The notes beneath the pieces are model-generated. The model worked only from the letters and a program-made list of their open reading frames with translations, had not been told where the DNA came from and did no database searches. From a virus, in the IMG/VR virus record IMGVR_UViG_3300036846_001009, positions 1 to 42,293 of that record: 42,293 nt of DNA; one strand, written 5' to 3'. The position numbers and the translations under genes were made by a program. Shown here piece after piece: positions 1,803 to 41,521 of this stretch (positions are counted from its first letter, which is position 1; each line of letters begins with the position of its first letter).

Positions 1803-2060
1803 TTATAGAATATTTATCTTTTCAAATTCAATCATAATCTTCGTCTTGCCAACCACCGAATACTTCTTTACAACAAACTGTTTGCGATCGTTATACTCAC
1901 CAGCAACCACAATTTGCATTCCTTCATCCACATCGGCTAGGAAGTTTAAACTATGCGCTGCAATTAAACAGTTCACTCCATCAAGCGAGAACCGCACCAA
2001 AGGGGTCTTGCTCATCTTCAACACTCGTATCTTCGAAACTACACCTTTCAATGATTTCAC
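1803..2060 (-). CDS. Small protein of SOS-box cassette, OB-fold-like (third gene)
   Basis: I choose the GTG at 2060, eight bases after GGAGG, giving 85 aa; an in-frame ATG at 2087 lies further upstream without a better site. The sequence alternates short beta-like blocks: a start G-V-V-S-K-I-R, then L-V-R-F-S-L-D-G, I-V-V-A-G-E-Y-N and F-V-V-K-K-Y-S-V. This pattern is typical of small OB-fold nucleic-acid-binding proteins, but no family is recognised. It overlaps the preceding gene by 80 nt in another frame. It is last in a three-gene leftward unit under a promoter with a LexA box, so expression after DNA damage is expected. Confidence 0.65.
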   Translation of the reverse strand: MKSLKGVVSKIRVLKMSKTPLVRFSLDGVNCLIAAHSLNFLADVDEGMQIVVAGEYNDRKQFVVKKYSVVGKTKIMIEFEKINIL

Positions 2061-2247
2061 ATTGATCGCCTCCGTATTTTTGCACATAATAATGACAATC
2101 AGTTTTGACTAATGTGACGGCAACATAAAACTCTACACAGCGAGTTCCAAATAAGTACTCCTGGGATTCAGAAATCGAGTTCGGAAATTCATTTATAAAC
2201 TCAGAAAGAGATAGGTAGCCTTGCTCATATTGAGTAATAAGATTCAT
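1981..2247 (-). CDS. Small acidic protein of SOS-box cassette (second gene)
   Basis: An 88-aa acidic protein whose ATG (2247) comes one base after the stop of the first gene, with a purine-rich GGGCGGGAA site just before it. The N-terminus looks helical (Y-L-S-L-S-E-F-I-N-E-F) and the tail is rich in D and E. No family is recognised. The last 80 nt are shared with the next gene in a different frame, so either the overlap is real or one of the two ends or starts differently. Order and spacing make it co-transcribed with its neighbours from the LexA-box promoter. Confidence 0.6.
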   Translation of the reverse strand: MNLITQYEQGYLSLSEFINEFPNSISESQEYLFGTRCVEFYVAVTLVKTDCHYYVQKYGGDQCEIIERCSFEDTSVEDEQDPFGAVLA

Positions 2248-2248
2248 T

Positions 2249-2539
2249 TCAGTTCCCGCCCGGTTTGTATTTTATGTTAGGATCGTATTTTCGGAGAATC
2301 TCGTCTTGTGTTCTTACGTGATCGAACAGATAATTGTCTCCTTCTTTCTTAAATACATAAGCTAATTCTTTTGGGTAACCACTATAGCTTGATGGCACGG
2401 TAAAGTAGGGTTTGCCGAAGTTCTCTATGGTTCTAACAAATTGATCGTACAATAAGTGAGCTGGACCCATGCGTTCGACGAATTCATAATAGTAACGCTC
2501 AAAGGCATACGTCCGCTGGTGCGCAAGTGGTATTTGCAT
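2249..2539 (-). CDS. Small protein, first gene of the SOS-box cassette
   Basis: The ATG at 2539 follows AAGGAGTG by 6 nt and gives 96 aa; a TTG six codons upstream would place the ribosome site inside the gene, so I reject it. The N-terminal half is aromatic and helical (Y-A-F-E-R-Y-Y-Y-E-F-V-E-R-M), the rest is mixed. No family is recognised. It is the gene closest to a near-consensus promoter with a LexA box in its spacer. SOS control of a small operon beside attP could mean a role in prophage induction or damage tolerance; the sequence does not say which. Confidence 0.7.
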   Translation of the reverse strand: MQIPLAHQRTYAFERYYYEFVERMGPAHLLYDQFVRTIENFGKPYFTVPSSYSGYPKELAYVFKKEGDNYLFDHVRTQDEILRKYDPNIKYKPGGN

Positions 2540-2559
2540 ATCAATCACTCCTTGCAAGA

Positions 2560-2588
2560 ATTATAAGAACAAACGTTCGTTTTGTAAA
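2560..2588 (-). promoter_or_regulatory. Promoter with embedded LexA (SOS) box
   Basis: Minus strand: -35 TTTACA (2588-2583), 17-bp spacer, -10 TATAAT (2565-2560). The spacer contains CGAACGTTTGTTCT (2579-2566), which keeps both GAAC/GTTC half-sites of the Gram-positive LexA operator (CGAAC-N4-GTTCG). LexA bound here would cover the space between the two promoter elements, so the downstream genes should be off until DNA damage. Confidence 0.8.
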
Positions 2589-2671
2589 GCGAACAGAAAA
2601 AATTATTAAAGTAAAAAAGCCTAACACAGGCTTTGAAAACTATGTATGTTGTTTCGTTTCATGCTGGCGGA

Positions 2672-2933
2672 TTGACTACCCCTTGACTACCCCGAAAAGA
2701 AATCAAGAGAAATTATAGAGTATATGACAATACTAAAAAAACTGAATTTAAACTAATTGAGAAATACTAGACCTTATTAATAAATTCAAAGATATGAAAT
2801 ACGGTCTCAAAGACAACAACGCTGCAGAATAAGACAAACATTGTCCAAGGGCTGTTTTATCAGCTTTCTAGAGGTTTTCCTATTTATAGGGAAACCTCTT
2901 TTTTTTACATTTGACTACCCCATTGACTACCCC
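2672..2933. other. Probable attP region with paired integrase arm sites
   Basis: Next to the 3' end of int, the 11-mer TTGACTACCCC occurs four times in the same orientation: 2672-2682, 2683-2693, 2911-2921 and 2923-2933. The two tandem pairs flank about 217 bp and look like arm-type binding sites for a tyrosine integrase; the right pair lies inside the int C-terminal codons. The core should be between them. Bases 2761-2832 read on the + strand as 23 sense codons ending in TAA, and a + strand terminator follows at 2871-2906, with no phage gene leading into it. This looks like the 3' end of a host target gene carried in attP. The exact core cannot be fixed without attB or attL/attR. Confidence 0.65.
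2871..2906 (+). terminator. Terminator in attP, reading rightward
   Basis: GAGGTTTTCC (2871-2880) pairs with GGGAAACCTC (2889-2898), one G-U pair, loop TATTTATA, then eight T. It works only on the + strand, yet no rightward phage gene precedes it. It may be the terminator of the bacterial gene into which the phage integrates; it would also shield int from rightward transcription. Confidence 0.75.
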
Positions 2934-4104
2934 TAGTATTTTTATCTGGATCTGGGCTGCCGTTTGCCATGAAGTTTGCAAAGTCATGAGCAGTTTTTTC
3001 TTTTCTTTGTTCAGTTACGTGAGCATATATGTTCATAGTAGTTTTAATATCAGTATGGCCCATTCGTTCCTGCACGTCTTTTATTGAAACACCTGCTTCA
3101 AATAGTAAACTACAATGAGTATGTCTAAATCCGTGGACAGTCATTTTAGGCAAATTATTTTCTTTCAGGATTTTCGAAAGATTATGGTTCAGGTAATCTA
3201 GATAAAGCGGTTTGTTTTCAGTAGAAGGGAAGAGCAATTGCTCTTGAGATAATGAGTTTATGCCAAACTGAAAAAGAAATTTTTGTTGGTGTAATTTCCA
3301 TTTTTTTATCAGACCCAGCGTCTCATCATCCAAAGAGATAGTACGAATACTTTTTCTTGTCTTCGGCGGCTGAAAAACTAACTCCCAATTCTGAATAGTT
3401 GCTAGAGTTTGTTTGACGGTAAGAGTTTTCTTATCGAAATCAATATCTTTCCAACGTAACGCATGCAATTCTCCTTTGCGAAGACCCGTATACCCAAGAA
3501 TTCGAAACATCACAAATAATTGTTCTGAATAATTTTCTTTTACCACCGACAAAAAAGTAAGCAACTGTTCACGATCATAGAAAGGAGCGATGTAGTCCTC
3601 TTCATCTACTTTTTGCTGTTTTTTTGGTCGAATTACACCATCCATTGGATTATTATTGAGTAACCGGATATTGATAGCATAATTGAATACTGATGTCGTG
3701 ATACCGATTAAGTTGGAGTATTTTTTGTAGTAACTAAACCAATGATTTACTTGTTTTTGACAAAATTGAATAGTAATCTTACTCATTCGGATATGACCAA
3801 ATAAAGGGAGAATGTGTTTGTTTATCGCAACTTTTTGAATAGTGTAAGTACTAGCTTTGACTGTGTTTCTGTATTGTTCTAACCACATATTGCATACTTC
3901 TTCAAATGTTTTTGTTGTTTCAGTGATGAAATCAGGTTCTTTTGATTCTAGTTGTAAACGAGCAAGTGCAAGCTTTGCCTCTTGCTGTGTTTTAAACCCT
4001 CGTTTCGTTGTTCGTTTCTTTTTACCAGAAATAGGGTCAACGCCTAAGTATATCTGAAACATATAGGCGGTAGATCCATCTTTCTTCTTATACTTTTTTA
4101 TCAT
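2905..4104 (-). CDS. int: Tyrosine-type site-specific integrase
   Basis: A 399-aa phage integrase that recombines attP with the host attB. The N-terminus has the short arm-binding domain common in Gram-positive phages (about 1-55), followed by the helical core-binding domain (about 65-165) and the catalytic domain (about 175-375). The catalytic residues are visible: R209 in T-G-L-R-K-G-E, H324 and R327 in H-G-F-R-H-T-H, H350 in G-H-T-D, and the nucleophile Y360 in M-N-I-Y-A-H. The ATG at 4104 follows AAAGGACG. The last codons overlap one pair of arm-type repeats. The gene lies last in the leftward lysogeny block, but 140 nt away from the lipoprotein gene, so it may have its own promoter. Confidence 0.96.
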   Translation of the reverse strand: MIKKYKKKDGSTAYMFQIYLGVDPISGKKKRTTKRGFKTQQEAKLALARLQLESKEPDFITETTKTFEEVCNMWLEQYRNTVKASTYTIQKVAINKHILPLFGHIRMSKITIQFCQKQVNHWFSYYKKYSNLIGITTSVFNYAINIRLLNNNPMDGVIRPKKQQKVDEEDYIAPFYDREQLLTFLSVVKENYSEQLFVMFRILGYTGLRKGELHALRWKDIDFDKKTLTVKQTLATIQNWELVFQPPKTRKSIRTISLDDETLGLIKKWKLHQQKFLFQFGINSLSQEQLLFPSTENKPLYLDYLNHNLSKILKENNLPKMTVHGFRHTHCSLLFEAGVSIKDVQERMGHTDIKTTMNIYAHVTEQRKEKTAHDFANFMANGSPDPDKNTRGSQWGSQM

Positions 4105-4208: not shown

Positions 4209-4247
4209 CACGCTCCTTGACTGCCAAGAAAGAGGGGCGTGTTTTTA
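4209..4247 (+). terminator. Rightward terminator-like hairpin after the lipoprotein gene
   Basis: CACGCTCC (4209-4216) pairs with GGGGCGTG (4234-4241) and is followed by TTTTTA on the + strand; no U-tract follows on the minus strand. It overlaps the end of the leftward lipoprotein gene and would stop transcription entering the lysogeny block from the int side. It has no obvious rightward gene to serve. Confidence 0.5.
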
Positions 4248-4901
4248 TTTTTCAATCGGAACATTAAATTCAATTGAAGATCCGTACATCTCAGATGAGA
4301 ATGTGAGTTTCAAAGTTTCACTGGGATTAGCTAGCAAAACCGTAGATGTGGCCATTTCTGCTTCACCATCATTTATTTCATATATATCTGGATTGGTATT
4401 ACCGTTTTGATCTAAATCATAAAAACCAAATTCTACAAGTGATCCACCTTGATCTTTCCACCCCCCAACACTGTTTATTCCGAGTTCGTCAATAATTTTT
4501 TGATTATCCAAATAAGGCATACCCAAAGATTCTCCGCTTGAATTTTTCATAAGTAATGTTATACTTACCGCTTGATTCGCTTTACCATTAGAATAGAAAT
4601 CTAGATTATTCTCATTATTAGTTTGCTCATTTTTAGCTTTTTCGGTGACATCTTTAACCTCAGTAATCTCTATTGTGTACATAATTTTATCATTATACTT
4701 AATTTCGCCAGGAGTGTTTATTTTTGTGATTACATTTTCCTCCGGTTGATTTGATAAAGATGTATTCTCTGATATTACTGTTTCAGATGTTGTTGAAGTG
4801 CTAACGCTTTTATCAGAAGAATAACTAGTCGTATCTTTATTATTACTACATCCAGAAAGTAAGAAGATACTAAACAAAATCCCAAAAACAACTTTTTTCA
4901 T
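4245..4901 (-). CDS. Surface lipoprotein, candidate superinfection-exclusion protein
   Basis: A 218-aa lipoprotein: a charged start M-K-K, a hydrophobic stretch, and the lipobox L-L-S-G-C with the lipidated cysteine at 18. A low-complexity Ser/Thr linker (about 19-55) leads to a beta-rich domain of about 150 residues resembling the Ig-like DUF4352/DUF5067 lipoproteins. It would be anchored outside the membrane. RBS GAGGAAAG precedes the ATG. It follows the repressor and ImmA-like genes by 31 nt, so a lysogen should express it. A lipoprotein at this place in prophages (as Ltp of phage TP-J34) blocks DNA entry of related phages; that role is inferred here. Confidence 0.8.
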   Translation of the reverse strand: MKKVVFGILFSIFLLSGCSNNKDTTSYSSDKSVSTSTTSETVISENTSLSNQPEENVITKINTPGEIKYNDKIMYTIEITEVKDVTEKAKNEQTNNENNLDFYSNGKANQAVSITLLMKNSSGESLGMPYLDNQKIIDELGINSVGGWKDQGGSLVEFGFYDLDQNGNTNPDIYEINDGEAEMATSTVLLANPSETLKLTFSSEMYGSSIEFNVPIEK

Positions 4902-4932: not shown

Positions 4933-5409
4933 TTATCCATAGATATTTAATGGTTCTACAAAAATAGATTCGGTATCGAATCTGAACTTATAGTTTCGAT
5001 AATAATGATTAGTACCGTATTTATTGAAATAATGGATTAATGCATCCTCTAGAAATTCCACAGTAACATTGAGAAATTCACTACACTCAAATTTGGTATT
5101 ACATCCATTTAATGCGCAGTTCAAAAGATCATCTAAAGTAATGATCATCTCAATCCCATATCTTCGTGCCTTCCATTCTTCCTTCCAAGCACCTGGGGCT
5201 GTGTAATCAAGAATATTCCCAACAGTTCTTTTGTAATGACCGTATTCTTCAGCCAAAACCACTTTCTTTTTTCTATTAGTATTATTTTTTTCCAGATATA
5301 TTCTCCCATTTCTATATAGAGAGATAAAGCCAGTTTCACTTTCAATGGGGCCTTCGATAACTGGTAATTCGTTAGCAACATCTGCGATAAGATTTTCGAA
5401 ATCATCCAT
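4933..5409 (-). CDS. ImmA/IrrE-like (DUF955) putative metallopeptidase
   Basis: A 158-aa protein of the ImmA/IrrE family, cytoplasmic peptidases that in ICEBs1-type elements cleave the immunity repressor. I start at ATG 5409, seven bases after AGTAGG. The zinc motif region reads E-E-Y-G-H (54-58) where HExxH is expected, so the first histidine is replaced; this variant is common among phage members and may still fold around metal or act without it. Downstream, G-N-I-L-D-Y and W-K-E-E-W-K-A-R-R fit the family. It lies 8 nt after the repressor gene, which lacks its own peptidase domain, so the two probably form an induction pair. Confidence 0.85.
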   Translation of the reverse strand: MDDFENLIADVANELPVIEGPIESETGFISLYRNGRIYLEKNNTNRKKKVVLAEEYGHYKRTVGNILDYTAPGAWKEEWKARRYGIEMIITLDDLLNCALNGCNTKFECSEFLNVTVEFLEDALIHYFNKYGTNHYYRNYKFRFDTESIFVEPLNIYG

Positions 5410-5417
5410 AAACAAAC

Positions 5418-5873
5418 CTACTTTTTATCAAATTTTCGATCTAATTCATCGAGGAAGGAATTAATTTTTTTGAATTCTTCTTTTGATACTTTTTTGTTAG
5501 GATCATCAGAATGGGCAGCGATAGTAAATATCTCCTCATTTCTTTGCTGTTCGTAAAGTTTAAAGGTAGCAAAATCTAGAACTTCTTTTTTACGTTTAAT
5601 ATCAAGCTTATTAAAAATTGAAATAATAGACTCCGAGTCCTTTGAAAAAGTTACTACATTGGAATGATCTGTAACATAATCAAATAATTGCTGAGGGGAT
5701 ACTCCGAGTGCTGATGCATATGTGGCAATATCCTTTTCCGTGATAGCCCTATTCTGATTTTCGTGATTAGAAATTGTATTCTGGCTAAATCCAGTTAGTT
5801 TACTCAAATCTGATTGAGTCATACCCTTTTCTTTTCTAAAAGATTTAATAGCAGGTCCAAGTAGGTTTTTCAA
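5418..5873 (-). CDS. CI-like phage repressor (HTH_XRE)
   Basis: A 151-aa protein with an N-terminal XRE-type HTH (about 8-62; M-T-Q-S-D-L-S-K-L-T-G-F-S-Q-N-T-I-S is the helix-turn-helix core) and a short helical C-terminus without an S24 peptidase. The start is TTG 5873, six bases after GGAGGG. It should hold the prophage silent by binding the TATCTC-N5-GAGATA operators between it and the Cro-like gene. Lacking self-cleavage, it likely depends on the adjacent ImmA-like protein, or on an antirepressor, for induction. Confidence 0.92.
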   Translation of the reverse strand: MKNLLGPAIKSFRKEKGMTQSDLSKLTGFSQNTISNHENQNRAITEKDIATYASALGVSPQQLFDYVTDHSNVVTFSKDSESIISIFNKLDIKRKKEVLDFATFKLYEQQRNEEIFTIAAHSDDPNKKVSKEEFKKINSFLDELDRKFDKK

Positions 5874-30716: not shown

Positions 30717-32227
30717 TTAGCGATTTAGAGATTAAATTAAATGATGTCAGTTTGTCAGATTACTTTGATTTAACCGATGAGCCAGATCGTGGTCTCTTTC
30801 CTGAAGTGCAACATGATCTGGTTCAGATGGCACAAGCAAATGGATCTCGTGCAACCAACAAAAGATTTGCACATAGAATAATCACTTTGCCATTGTACGC
30901 CTTGAGTGGAAACTTTAGACAGACAAAGGATGATTTGGCAAATGTGTTATTCGCTGAAGAACGGCAGCGACTTTGGTTCTCAGATGAACCGGATAGATAC
31001 TGGTTAGTTGAATTAACAGGAGAATCAAGCTGGAAACGATCACTTGATAGCAAAGGAGAGGCTTTCGGAGAGTTGAAGTTTTTATGTGAAGATGGATTAG
31101 CGCATGCTATGGTACCCAAACCATTTCAGATAATATCAACAAGTGAAGGTGTGCTAGCAGAAGTAAACAATACAGGAACATATAAAACGCCGATAGATAT
31201 CAATGTTACTTTTACAAGTGATGCAAATTCTATCGGTTTTGTTTCGTCCGATAGAATCGTACAGTTAGGAACATCATTTTCCGAGGATGAAGACAATGCT
31301 GTGGCTTCTGATAAGATTATGAATGATAATATGGGGTCGCCTTCTAGAAGCTTGTGGTCTTCAAATGTAGGTCGTATTCGACATAACTATGACAACGGAG
31401 ATAACACGTCAAAAATTCTTGGCGCTTGGCAATGGAATTCTGAAGATGTCACTCCATCAAGTTATGGATCAATTGATGAAACTAAACCGGGATACTGGCA
31501 TGGGCCAACATTAACGAGGTTACTTACCGAGTCGATGACCGATTTTGAAGTGTACCATCGGTTTGAGTTTAAACCAACTGGAACATCGGCACAGCGTCCA
31601 ACATGTCAAGGACTGCTTGAAATTAATTACTCTGATGCGGATAACAATTTTGTGATAGGTTTTGAGATGAAAGATACCGAAAGTAAACAGGATAGAGTTA
31701 GTTATTCATTTTTTGTAGGGGATTATCGTGCTTTTCAAGGGTATCTACCTGCTAGTGTCTTAACGACAAGCGGCGGGTTCTTTGGAGCGATAATTATGAA
31801 AAAGGTTGCTAATCAATTTACATTTCGTCTTGTTAGGTTGAATACAACTACATGGAAAGAGTCTTGGAGTTCTCCAACAAAAAACTGGTATAACAATGCC
31901 GTAGCAATGCTGCCGGTTAGTTTGATAAATATGTTTGCAGCTAAGTGGAAAAGCGATCGAGAGATGAGTATTAAACTTACTCATACAAGGATTACGCAAT
32001 ATAATACTGAAACAGAATCACTAATACCTAAAACTTTCTACAGTGGAGACAACCTTTTCGTTGAAGGTGAAACTAACCGAGTGTATATCAATGGTATTCG
32101 AGATGATAGTTACCGTGTGATCGGCAGCAGTCAGGTGTTGACTGCACCAAAAGGAAATACAGAAATAGTTGCAGTTTCAGATGGCACATTTACTGGGAAT
32201 CTTGAAATAAGGGAGCGTTACTTATGA
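30713..32227 (+). CDS. Distal tail protein (Dit), extended form
   Basis: A 504-aa Dit; the ATG overlaps the tape measure stop. Residues 1 to about 135 are the standard N-terminal ring domain (S-L-S-D-Y-F-D-L, then R-Q-T-K-D-D-L-A-N). Classical Dits have 250-300 aa; here a beta-rich insert of about 200 residues (about 220-430, with W-H-G-P-T-L-T-R, F-E-V-Y-H-R-F-E-F and similar) looks like a carbohydrate-binding jelly roll, as in evolved Dits. It may bind the cell wall before the receptor-binding protein does. Confidence 0.88.
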   Translation: MISDLEIKLNDVSLSDYFDLTDEPDRGLFPEVQHDLVQMAQANGSRATNKRFAHRIITLPLYALSGNFRQTKDDLANVLFAEERQRLWFSDEPDRYWLVELTGESSWKRSLDSKGEAFGELKFLCEDGLAHAMVPKPFQIISTSEGVLAEVNNTGTYKTPIDINVTFTSDANSIGFVSSDRIVQLGTSFSEDEDNAVASDKIMNDNMGSPSRSLWSSNVGRIRHNYDNGDNTSKILGAWQWNSEDVTPSSYGSIDETKPGYWHGPTLTRLLTESMTDFEVYHRFEFKPTGTSAQRPTCQGLLEINYSDADNNFVIGFEMKDTESKQDRVSYSFFVGDYRAFQGYLPASVLTTSGGFFGAIIMKKVANQFTFRLVRLNTTTWKESWSSPTKNWYNNAVAMLPVSLINMFAAKWKSDREMSIKLTHTRITQYNTETESLIPKTFYSGDNLFVEGETNRVYINGIRDDSYRVIGSSQVLTAPKGNTEIVAVSDGTFTGNLEIRERYL

Positions 32228-34815
32228 TTTATCACTTTTTAGATAAACAATTTAATCCTTTGACTTTGATAGATACTGAAGCTTCAGACGGCATTGTGGT
32301 TGAAGATGACATCCATACTGTAGAACTGACTAACGGTACGCTATTGAACACGTTGACTATGGATATACTCAAACAAACTGGACCAAGGATAAATGACTAT
32401 GATCCCAATGTACCCTTTGAAACATCTTTGATAAAAGAAGGTGTTAATGTTGTTTTTCAAAATGATCAAGGGGAAGATATTTGCTTGTTCGTCAGGGCGC
32501 TTGAAACAGAGGATGAAACTACTCGACCTCTATCTTGTGTAGATATTGGTACCGAACTAAGAAATGGATCAGCGACTGTTTTTGATAGTAACAATGAGCA
32601 ATATATCGAATACTATGTTGAGAGAGAGTTATACGATACTGGATGGGAAATCGGTGTGAACGAAATTAGCAGAGATATTAAGCGATTAGTTGATACTAGT
32701 AGTGATGAAACACCACTAGCAAGGCTGCAAAGGGTCTGCGAAGCTTTCGGATGTGAAATGAAATTCACAGTAGATTTTCAAAATACAAAAGTAAAACGTA
32801 AACTCGTAAACATCTATTATAAAATAGGGGCTGATAAATCGGACAAAGTTTTATATTCTGGTGTTGATGTTATATCACTGCAAAAATCTGTAGATATTGA
32901 CAACGTGATCACCGCCTTGGAGGATACGAACCATGGATTTGATGATATATCGATCGGTGATGGTCGTTTCTTTACTATGGTTGGTCAATCCATTGTCTAT
33001 GATCGTGAATCAAATGCTCTCTACGGTCGTGGAAATACTTTTAATGAACGGTTTAGTGGTTATATCACCGGCAAGTTTGCAAGTTCTAGCACTGCTCAAA
33101 TAGATAACTACAACGAAGCTGTCTCTATTTTAGAAGAACGGTGCCAACCAACGTTCGCAGCTGAAGTCGATATGCTGTTCAATGACGGTGATTTTGAGAT
33201 AGGTGACTGGTTAACATTTGTAGACGAGGATTACAACCCGGCGCTACGTCTAAAAGCCAGAGTTCTTTCAAAAGAAATTCATCGAAGTAATCCATCTGAG
33301 AACAAAGCGGTTGTCGGAAACTATCAACTTCTAGAAAGCTTGATCAGCAGTGATTTGCTAGCTAGGCAGCAACAAATGAATAAGCCGGATAGCATGTACT
33401 TAGTCAAATTGACCTCTGACAATGGTGTTAGCTTTGTTGATGGTGAAGAAAAAACAACGAATATCACTGCAACGATATATAAAGACGGTGTCGATATCAC
33501 TTCTAGTGTTTCAGTCGAGGATATCCTGTGGTTTAAGGTGGATAAAGATGGCAATCACGATACAGCATGGGAAACATTATATAAAAATGCGGGCCCAACT
33601 GTGCAAGTATCAGGGACTGAATTCACAGAAGTTTCAAGCATAAAATGCACGCTCACTGTATTTGATAACCATTTTGTTCAGGCTATTTATTTTCTGAACG
33701 GTCTAAGAGATGCAGCTAGAAAAGTACTTCGTTTGCAAACGAAAGATACCATAACTAGTATTCATATCTCTGACACTCATTATGCAACGGATTCTATTGG
33801 ACGTGATGATTTAGAAAATTATGGTCGCAGCAATAGTCATATCAAGAATGTTGCTGAACTAACAAATTTTGTAGATGTCGATTATGTGGTACTAAACGGT
33901 GATACTCACGATGGATCAACAGCGAATAAGAATATCGCTATGGCGAACTTCCGTGAAGCTGTAGGTACATTAGGTTTATCAAATGCACCGTACTTCGTTA
34001 CTTGGGGAAACCACTGTAATAATTCATGGGGAGATAGTCGAACGAATTCAATCACTAAAGTAGTGAAAAATTACGAACCCAAAGCGCCTCTTGAATATTT
34101 GCACGGGAAAGGGCGCCAAATGCTTTCCAATACAGAGATGTACGAAATTGCCACAAGACCAAGTACGATCTTTGATATTGTCGAAAATCCAATTGATAAA
34201 ATGGGCTATTACTACTACGATGTTCCGGACAAAAAGCATAGAGTAATCATATTAAACCCACAGGATATACCAGATGGTTTAGATACGGATGGCTACTTAA
34301 AATATGTCGGTATAAACGTTGCTGGTTATCGACAAGAACAGATTAGTTGGTTTTACCAAACCTTGAAGAATACACCAGACGACATGACGGTATCCATCTA
34401 TCAGCACTATCCCTTTGGAAAAAGATATTCTACATCGTTGAATTATTACCCTTACAACTACGAAATGGTTGAGGGAATTATCAATGGCTTTGTCACCGGT
34501 GGGACGTTTAGCCGAAGCTATAGTGCAAATACAGATTTTAAAGCAAGTATTTCTTGTGACTTTCAAGGTCGCAAAGGAACGCTTGCTTTTTTAGCGCATG
34601 GCCATACGCATACCGATCGTATAACGAAAGGTGACAATGGGATCGTGAATTATTCTATCGGCTGCTCTGTTAGTCGTCCTAAGAAAGACCAAGCAGATAG
34701 ACCTCTTGGAGTTTTGGAAGAAGATTTGTGGGATGTAATTGTACTAAATCCTAAGGAGCGCAAATTTAACTTAATTCGATTTGGCAAAGGATCAGATAAG
34801 GTTATCACATATTAG
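32224..34815 (+). CDS. Tail-associated protein (Tal) with C-terminal calcineurin-like phosphoesterase domain
   Basis: An 863-aa tail-tip protein. Residues 1 to about 385 are a prophage endopeptidase-type Tal baseplate domain; about 390-495 is an Ig-like linker. The C-terminus (about 508-860) has the full set of metallophosphoesterase motifs: D517-x-H519, G559-D560 (followed by T-H), G-N596-H597, H728 (Q-H-Y) and G-H794-x-H796. All five are intact, so it should be an active dinuclear metal enzyme. At the tail tip the likely substrate is a wall polymer with phosphodiester bonds such as teichoic acid, in place of the usual peptidase or lysozyme; this is inferred. Confidence 0.9.
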   Translation: MIYHFLDKQFNPLTLIDTEASDGIVVEDDIHTVELTNGTLLNTLTMDILKQTGPRINDYDPNVPFETSLIKEGVNVVFQNDQGEDICLFVRALETEDETTRPLSCVDIGTELRNGSATVFDSNNEQYIEYYVERELYDTGWEIGVNEISRDIKRLVDTSSDETPLARLQRVCEAFGCEMKFTVDFQNTKVKRKLVNIYYKIGADKSDKVLYSGVDVISLQKSVDIDNVITALEDTNHGFDDISIGDGRFFTMVGQSIVYDRESNALYGRGNTFNERFSGYITGKFASSSTAQIDNYNEAVSILEERCQPTFAAEVDMLFNDGDFEIGDWLTFVDEDYNPALRLKARVLSKEIHRSNPSENKAVVGNYQLLESLISSDLLARQQQMNKPDSMYLVKLTSDNGVSFVDGEEKTTNITATIYKDGVDITSSVSVEDILWFKVDKDGNHDTAWETLYKNAGPTVQVSGTEFTEVSSIKCTLTVFDNHFVQAIYFLNGLRDAARKVLRLQTKDTITSIHISDTHYATDSIGRDDLENYGRSNSHIKNVAELTNFVDVDYVVLNGDTHDGSTANKNIAMANFREAVGTLGLSNAPYFVTWGNHCNNSWGDSRTNSITKVVKNYEPKAPLEYLHGKGRQMLSNTEMYEIATRPSTIFDIVENPIDKMGYYYYDVPDKKHRVIILNPQDIPDGLDTDGYLKYVGINVAGYRQEQISWFYQTLKNTPDDMTVSIYQHYPFGKRYSTSLNYYPYNYEMVEGIINGFVTGGTFSRSYSANTDFKASISCDFQGRKGTLAFLAHGHTHTDRITKGDNGIVNYSIGCSVSRPKKDQADRPLGVLEEDLWDVIVLNPKERKFNLIRFGKGSDKVITY

Positions 34816-39316: not shown

Positions 39317-39336
39317 AATTTGAAAGGATGATCAAA

Positions 39337-40119
39337 ATGAATATTGAACAAATGATTAAATGGATGACTGATCGTGAAGGTAAAGTAACCTACTCAATGA
39401 CAAGTCGCTTAGGACCTAAAAGCTATGACTGTTCTTCTGCAGTGTTCTTTTCCATGATAGCTGGCGGGTTCTTACCTAGCGAATCGATGGGAAACACAGA
39501 AACATTATTTGCAATGTCAGGTACTAAACTGAAAAAAATCAGCCGATCAGAAGTGAAACGAGGAGATATCTTCGTTGCTGGTACTCCTGGTCAGTCTAAT
39601 GGGTCAGGTGGGCATACAGGTATTTTCCTAAGCAATAAGAGTTTCATTCATTGTTCGTTTTATTGGAACGGAATCCATACAGATAGCCATGATTCATACA
39701 TGAGTACCCGGTTAACGCATCATTTTTATCGAATTGTTGCATCTGGTGATGTTAAACCTACCGAAAACAACCCTCAGATGATTCATTTAGCAATCGATGG
39801 ACAATTCGGCAATGCTACGGCGAGACGCTTGCAAGAATACTTTGATACTGCGGGTAAAGATGGCATTATAAGCCACCAATACAAGCAAAAGTTTAATCAG
39901 AACGTTTATGCTGCTCAATTCGATAGTTCTTTGATTGGATCAAATGTTGTTGTGGCATTGCAAAAGTATTTGGGTGTAACACAAGATGGTCTAATGGGCC
40001 AAGCGACTATCAAAGCATTCCAAAAACGATTGGGTACTATGCCAGACGGTATTATTAGTCCTGTTTCGAGCATGGTTTCTGCACTACAGAAAGCATTGAA
40101 CAACAACAAATTACCTTAA
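39337..40119 (+). CDS. Endolysin 1: PF05382-type peptidoglycan hydrolase with PG-binding repeats
   Basis: A 260-aa endolysin; ATG 39337 follows AAAGGATGATCAAA. The catalytic domain (about 1-140) is the Amidase_5/PF05382 type: C32 in Y-D-C-S-S-A-V and H93 in G-G-H-T-G form the active site. The C-terminus has two peptidoglycan-binding-1-like repeats (I-D-G-Q-F-G-N-A-T-A-R-R-L-Q and Q-D-G-L-M-G-Q-A-T-I-K-A-F-Q). It lies directly after the holin. Confidence 0.92.
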   Translation: MNIEQMIKWMTDREGKVTYSMTSRLGPKSYDCSSAVFFSMIAGGFLPSESMGNTETLFAMSGTKLKKISRSEVKRGDIFVAGTPGQSNGSGGHTGIFLSNKSFIHCSFYWNGIHTDSHDSYMSTRLTHHFYRIVASGDVKPTENNPQMIHLAIDGQFGNATARRLQEYFDTAGKDGIISHQYKQKFNQNVYAAQFDSSLIGSNVVVALQKYLGVTQDGLMGQATIKAFQKRLGTMPDGIISPVSSMVSALQKALNNNKLP

Positions 40120-40545: not shown

Positions 40546-40633
40546 CCTCTTTCTATACCCGTTATGGTTTATCCTTTAATTAAGGACGTACGTTCACCAT
40601 GGACGCATGGTTAAAAGAGAGGGGAAATTAAAA

Positions 40634-41521
40634 ATGGCTAGTATCGAAAATATGATCAAATGGTTTAAGGATCGAGAAGGTAAAGTAACTTATTCAATGA
40701 ACTCACGTTTAGGACCAAACAGTTATGACTGTAGTTCGGCTGTGTATTTCTCATTGATTGCGGGAGGTTTCTTACCTTCGGGTACAGGGATTGGAAATAC
40801 AGACTCACTATTTGCGTTAGAAGGTAAATTGCTTACTTCGATTACTCGTTCTGAAGTGAAACGGGGGGACATTTTTGTTGCAGGGTACAAGGGAAACTCT
40901 GGCGGTTCGGATGGACACACTGGGGTTTTTGTTGATAGTACAAATATTATTCATTGTACCTTAGGAGGCGGAAAAAATGGAATCGTAACGACACCAGCTA
41001 CAAATTGGATGGGAGATTATAGTGGATTGCCAGTATACTTTTACCGATTAAAGGGCGCTAATCCTCCATTTAAGTACAAAGTGGATGACGTTGTTTATAT
41101 CAAAAACAATGCCACTCATTACTTTAATGGTGACTTAATTAGTGATAACGATAAGAAACTTGCTGGAAAAGTAACGGGTGTTAAGTATGACGACACCGGT
41201 CGAAATGGTGAGCATAATTTAGTATTTGTAAAACAAGTTCAAACACCTACAATTATTAATCACTGGACCTTAGAACGTGATCTGGAGAAGTGGTCTCCAA
41301 CAACTACCTATATTTCTAATGGTGAAATTGTTAAATTTAAAGCAGCAGCACAGAGAACAGTAGAGGGAACGCTATTGACATCTGCTCAGAAATCAAAAAG
41401 TGTAAAAAAAGTCGATACAATCGATATTGCACCAGTGAATGTTGGTACAGGTACTAGTTATCGTAAGTATAAGCTTGAGGGTATTTCTGGATGGATCTAT
41501 GAAACTGATGTTCAAAAATGA
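40634..41521 (+). CDS. Endolysin 2: same catalytic domain, different C-terminus
   Basis: A 295-aa endolysin; ATG 40634 after GAGAGGGGAAA. The N-terminal 140 residues closely match endolysin 1 (shared D-R-E-G-K-V-T-Y-S-M, S-R-L-G-P, Y-D-C-S-S-A-V and R-S-E-V-K-R-G-D-I-F-V-A-G), with C33 and H95 as active-site residues. The C-terminus is unrelated: two SH3-like units (K-V-D-D-V-V-Y-I-K-N-N-A and T-T-Y-I-S-N-G-E-I-V-K). The pair arose by duplication or by recombination at the catalytic domain. Confidence 0.92.
   Translation: MASIENMIKWFKDREGKVTYSMNSRLGPNSYDCSSAVYFSLIAGGFLPSGTGIGNTDSLFALEGKLLTSITRSEVKRGDIFVAGYKGNSGGSDGHTGVFVDSTNIIHCTLGGGKNGIVTTPATNWMGDYSGLPVYFYRLKGANPPFKYKVDDVVYIKNNATHYFNGDLISDNDKKLAGKVTGVKYDDTGRNGEHNLVFVKQVQTPTIINHWTLERDLEKWSPTTTYISNGEIVKFKAAAQRTVEGTLLTSAQKSKSVKKVDTIDIAPVNVGTGTSYRKYKLEGISGWIYETDVQK

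Follow-up and report, generated by a model that had tools for sequence, protein, structure and literature searches.

A LexA-box cassette just inside one att site of an enterococcal phage, probably a polymerase-less accessory module of a translesion-synthesis operon

The stretch of DNA analysed here, called the window below, is a complete virus record of 42.3 kb and belongs, going by its relatives, to a temperate enterococcal phage. Beside attP, on the minus strand, lies a cassette of three small genes (A, B and C) headed by a strong promoter that matches 11 of the 12 consensus positions (2588-2560) and holds a LexA (SOS) box in its spacer (Table 1). A terminator-like stem upstream of this promoter separates it from transcription of the integrase gene (int), and an ImmA-like protease gene that was missing from the preliminary description of this DNA comes right after the phage repressor gene.

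Table 1. Positions of the cassette and of neighbouring features in the window
Feature	Position	Strand	Basis or remark
-35 element TTTACA	2583-2588	-	Sequence; kept in relatives
Promoter spacer AAACGAACGTTTGTTCT, 17 nt	2582-2566	-	Between TTTACA and TATAAT
LexA (SOS) box CGAACGTTTGTTCT in promoter spacer	2566-2579	-	Sequence, conservation in relatives
-10 element TATAAT	2560-2565	-	Sequence
Terminator-like stem-loop, 8-bp stem and T-run, upstream of cassette promoter	2616-2634	-	Pattern match only
Gene A, DUF5960 protein, 96 aa	2249-2539	-	ATG start, Shine-Dalgarno AAGGAG at 2553-2548
Gene B, 88-aa protein	1981-2247	-	No family by profile search
Gene C, OB-fold protein of SSB/PriB shape (predicted), about 85 aa	1803-2060	-	GTG start, Shine-Dalgarno GGAGG; ORF open to ATG 2087
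attP core region, 3' end of rpmE2 (...KYGLKDNNAAE)	about 2797-2840		Sequence identity; prophage in genome G049
Tyrosine integrase, other side of attP	2905-4104	-	Profile matches
ImmA/IrrE-like M78 metallopeptidase	4933-5415	-	Pfam M78 31.6 bits, phrog_87 109 bits
HTH repressor without peptidase S24 domain	5418-5873	-	Profile search

The preliminary description had placed both LexA half-sites in a 17-bp spacer between near-consensus -35 and -10 elements, and this holds for the window and for all relatives compared. The core of the box, GAACGTTTGTTC (2567-2578), is the sole match to GAACNNNNGTTC in the 42 kb. Since chance alone would give 0.57 such sites across the whole window, the match by itself is weak evidence; strong evidence comes from its conservation, as the box lies in the same promoter spacer in 20 of the 20 IMG/VR relatives of gene A whose upstream sequence reaches 130 bp or more. 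The half-sites GAAC and GTTC are invariant in these relatives and the inner four bases vary (AAAC, GAAC, GTTC, AAGC, GTTA). A related E. casseliflavus genome (L002, G001) contains seven sites that fit the extended pattern GAACNNNNGTTYGTATA, against one for the reversed control. One of them precedes a gene that, from its sequence, we take to be lexA, and others lie at a UvrX-type Y-family polymerase with the same promoter layout as the window cassette, a chromosomal DUF5960 gene, a YolD-like-B-C unit, an integrase and the window cassette. From these neighbours the motif can be read as the host's own LexA operator, which in the window overlaps the cassette promoter. The bacterial DNA-damage response thus probably switches on the three genes, and LexA control, as proposed earlier, is well supported by the conservation of the box and by gene context.

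Gene A matches Pfam PF19385 (DUF5960) with 33.4 bits, the gathering cut-off being 24.1. Its conserved start with a Shine-Dalgarno sequence is ATG 2539; the start proposed in the list of open reading frames, TTG 2557, falls ahead of the point where transcription is expected to begin and was rejected. The AlphaFold model of DUF5960 (pLDDT 64, below 50 over the N-terminal 25 residues) was too poor for use, and its best Foldseek match (E 0.45) was set aside. In relatives, gene B is found between a DUF5960 or YolD-like gene and gene C. Gene C belongs to phrog_15227 and has no Pfam family; as its likeliest start is GTG 2060, a protein of about 85 aa is more likely than the full ORF of 94 aa. For gene C, AlphaFold predicts a small beta barrel with confidence (mean pLDDT 84). 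Its alignment with SSB and PriB extends over about 70-80 residues (Z about 11-12), but identity is 8-21% and the protein has no obvious acidic C-terminal tip. This model and its SSB/PriB matches support the earlier suggestion that the third gene encodes an OB fold, and of the structural searches then suggested, the one for C was informative and the one for A was not. Profile-based sequence searches of the PDB gave no matches for C and chance-like matches only for A, and domain profile searches detected no YolD or UmuD (S24) domain in A, B or C.

The attP core region coincides with the 3' end of a gene following rho, which we take from their sequences to be that of ribosomal protein L31 type B. 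In genome G049 a related prophage is bounded by this core sequence; int marks one of its ends, and the cassette lies immediately inside the opposite end. It follows that attP is intact in the window and that the cassette belongs to the genes at the prophage edge, in agreement with the earlier placement beside attP. Prophage edges are a usual place for lysogenic-conversion genes. Repeats of TTGACTACCCC (2671-2694 and 2909-2935) flank the attP core and are perhaps integrase arm sites; one pair of units falls within the 3' end of int. Beyond the cassette, at 532-1497, the window encodes an Abi_2-family abortive infection protein (133 bits), with a hairpin-like leader, seen by eye, near 1520-1566. 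A lipoprotein encoded beside the immunity genes (4245-4901) weakly resembles a superinfection-exclusion PHROG (E 0.0016). Elsewhere, a tail-region protein (32224-34815) has an apparent calcineurin-like phosphoesterase domain, judged by eye only (HISDTHYATD..., GNHCN, HGHTH), and two similar endolysin-like genes (39328-40119 and 40607-41521) lie around a short ORF of 132 aa.

The families of genes A and C occur in 50 and 84 of 105 Enterococcaceae genomes, respectively. In 41 of 80 enterococcal loci DUF5960 is preceded by a LexA box at 450 bp or less, against a background in enterococcal loci of 7 boxes in 388,828 bp or about 0.008 per 450 bp, and another 9 loci belong to UvrX operons; these counts refer to loci and not to independent evolutionary events. 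The remaining 30 are mostly a divergent branch, in which about 22 copies have neither a box nor a polymerase neighbour, so DUF5960 is not exclusively an SOS family. Gene C has a box in the 900 bp ahead of it at 56 of 66 distinct genomic loci, and 26 of the boxed loci have no A, B, YolD-like or UvrX gene in front. Megaplasmids of E. raffinosus and E. gilvus contain a DUF5960-C pair amid universal-stress genes and no prophage gene annotated near it. A search of plasmids with the DUF5960 protein of the window gave no match; divergent members of the family do occur in plasmids. The literature searched contained no mention of DUF5960 by name, and the papers listed by the searches included no enterococcal SOS transcriptome that names the cassette genes.

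Several variants of the arrangement were seen. In five viral loci (L011:2331-2700, L014, L021, L022, L023) a gene of about 106 aa (MKYNDFKNLLENRLSGYEVF...), without a Pfam family, lies between the box and DUF5960, and a protein resembling it precedes YolD-like-C near a box in L167. Small genes beginning MEEFIRKNISDEYADFYEKSS... (L087, L091) or, similarly, MEEFIRNNFGNELADSYRDS... (L175) come first after the LexA box, ahead of DUF5960 or C. Another DUF5960 subtype (L214-L293), with 131 relatives, is frequent among IMG/VR contigs and often lies near a contig end; a LexA box precedes 43 of the 63 for which enough upstream sequence exists, and the boxless ones share a different upstream sequence. 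Prophages of E. faecalis type (L297-L323) contain gene C without A or B, several of them with a promoter whose box, CGAACATGCATTCGGTATAAT, has one mismatch. In L031 and L033 gene C follows int.

Relatives of all three cassette genes are found in operons with UvrX. Nine enterococcal loci read box-UvrX-YolD-DUF5960, one of which (L068, Enterococcus) continues with B and C, and a further locus (L343) reads box-UvrX-YolD-B-C. The association extends beyond enterococci, since DUF5960 lies behind UvrX on the same strand, usually with a YolD-like gene between them, in 29 of the 30 best-scoring further loci from a wider Lactobacillales draw, for which lineage was taken at order level. On the Listeria plasmid pLIS28, the polymerase gene is followed by two more genes, of which one is a match to the YolD-like profile, and by DUF5960, and an S. 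suis plasmid has a polymerase, a weakly YolD-like gene and DUF5960. The polymerases beside DUF5960 extend through a C-terminal tail that is absent from DinB, and DinB was dismissed on this ground as their identity at the 30 additional loci; two enterococcal polymerases that were scanned scored best with NCBIfam PRK03103, under its cut-off. Phage EG-TP1 reads box-YolD-B-C where the window reads box-DUF5960-B-C, and the YolD-like gene in the place of A is sub-threshold (18.6 of 27.5 bits). Pfam YolD had no match in Enterococcaceae at E 0.001 or better and the YolD-like genes score under its cut-off; the label is based on their position beside UvrX, the DRxxxKW motif, weak Pfam matches and similarity to a Listeria plasmid protein that adjoins a Y-family polymerase. 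Timinskas and Venclovas argue that YolD is the Gram-positive counterpart of UmuD and expect it to bind the C-terminal tail of the polymerase (PMC6511836). The window itself has no Y-family polymerase gene detectable with UvrX and DinB profiles.

Based on the UvrX-YolD operon contexts, the layout of EG-TP1 and the missing polymerase in the window, we propose that the cassette is a polymerase-less derivative of a translesion-synthesis operon, that is, a LexA-repressed accessory module of the Gram-positive UvrX (Pol V-like) operon placed just inside one att site (probability roughly 0.68). The phage would then most likely supply helper parts for damage tolerance rather than the trigger of its own induction, and the damage-tolerance set, which the preliminary description had offered as an alternative, is well supported by conservation and gene context. 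From the promoter layout we infer that in a lysogen LexA sits between the -35 and -10 elements and keeps the unit silent. Cleavage of LexA after DNA damage would allow production of DUF5960, B and the SSB-like OB protein. As subunits or partners, these products most likely act with the UvrX of the host, itself controlled by the same box; since the phage has no polymerase, the function of the cassette depends on this putative partnership. The OB protein might bind or bridge to single-stranded DNA at stalled forks, and DUF5960 could join the polymerase as a partner, either together with the YolD-like subunit or as its replacement. The expected effect would be damage tolerance for both host and phage DNA.

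Small LexA-controlled proteins are often modulators, and a set without a polymerase could be dominant in its action. The cassette proteins might accordingly weaken RecA/LexA signalling or block the polymerase of the host, in the manner of DinI, PsiB or GIL01 gp7, and so protect the lysogen or delay induction; gp7 indeed acts on host LexA (PMC4551915). We consider such a brake unlikely, as the same genes share operons with the polymerase in many relatives, an arrangement more in keeping with a working subunit than with an inhibitor, and profile searches revealed no similarity of A, B or C to known modulators. Slightly less probable still is a polymerase-independent role, in which C would be a second SSB or a PriB-like restart factor with A and B as its partners, protecting single-stranded DNA or aiding phage replication or recombination. 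The predicted fold of C and the 26 loci with a boxed C on its own point in this direction, but the association of all three genes with UvrX-YolD does not, and the cassette is driven by an SOS promoter of its own, apart from the replication module.

The leading suggestion of the preliminary description was an antirepressor that links DNA damage to prophage induction. One cassette protein would inactivate the phage repressor or activate the ImmA-like protease, making induction LexA-dependent. Tum of phage 186 is such a LexA-controlled antirepressor, and those of Gifsy prophages are comparable. The position of the cassette near att and the single LexA box in the phage are compatible with this idea, the repressor indeed has no self-cleaving domain (profile searches found only the HTH), and LexA-controlled antirepressors are documented (PMC3121763). 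Like the Tum and Gifsy systems, the cassette consists of small LexA-controlled prophage genes, but the genes are not specific to the phage, as they recur behind the chromosomal UvrX polymerase and in chromosomal loci without prophage genes nearby. They are not matched to its repressor either, because phages that share DUF5960 or B-C carry dissimilar ones (29% identity over the HTH part, or no significant similarity). Moreover, the phage already has an ImmA-like M78 metallopeptidase adjoining the repressor, a candidate for the link between damage and derepression; a protease of this type has that function in ICEBs1 and it was proposed for TnSmu1 (PMC10233336). The antirepressor was therefore rejected as leading explanation on gene context, and we regard it as the least probable of the readings weighed here.

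If the cassette is an accessory module for the host polymerase, there may be more partners in the Gram-positive equivalent of Pol V than the polymerase and YolD, a question that PMC6511836 leaves open, and temperate phages may spread its accessory parts. DUF5960 and the phrog_15227 OB family, both uncharacterised, would gain a testable role. A broader proposal, which we hold tentatively and at somewhat less than even odds, is that Gram-positive SOS mutagenesis uses an undescribed UvrX-YolD-DUF5960-B-OB complex and that enterococcal prophages repeatedly carry LexA-controlled, polymerase-less subsets of it at their att ends, steering the error-prone polymerase of the host.

Among the closest known systems are the UvrX-YolD and YqjW-YqjX operons of Gram-positives, such as those of B. 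subtilis SPbeta and the POL modules of Listeria plasmids, which have the LexA box and belong to the same operon family; in relatives DUF5960, B and C follow UvrX-YolD, whereas the window has neither UvrX nor YolD. Membership of DUF5960, B and C in these operons is not described in the available text of PMC6511836 and PMC8508797. For a phage that contributes only the accessory, the parallel is HumD of phage P1, a ready-processed UmuD' that serves the host polymerase (PMC7092418). Both would be phage-borne accessories that come without their polymerase and serve an SOS translesion polymerase of the host, a role that for the cassette is proposed here and that for HumD was tested in E. coli (work cited in the same paper). 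They differ in their parts, as HumD is a UmuD' homologue and the window encodes DUF5960, B and an OB protein but no UmuD or YolD.
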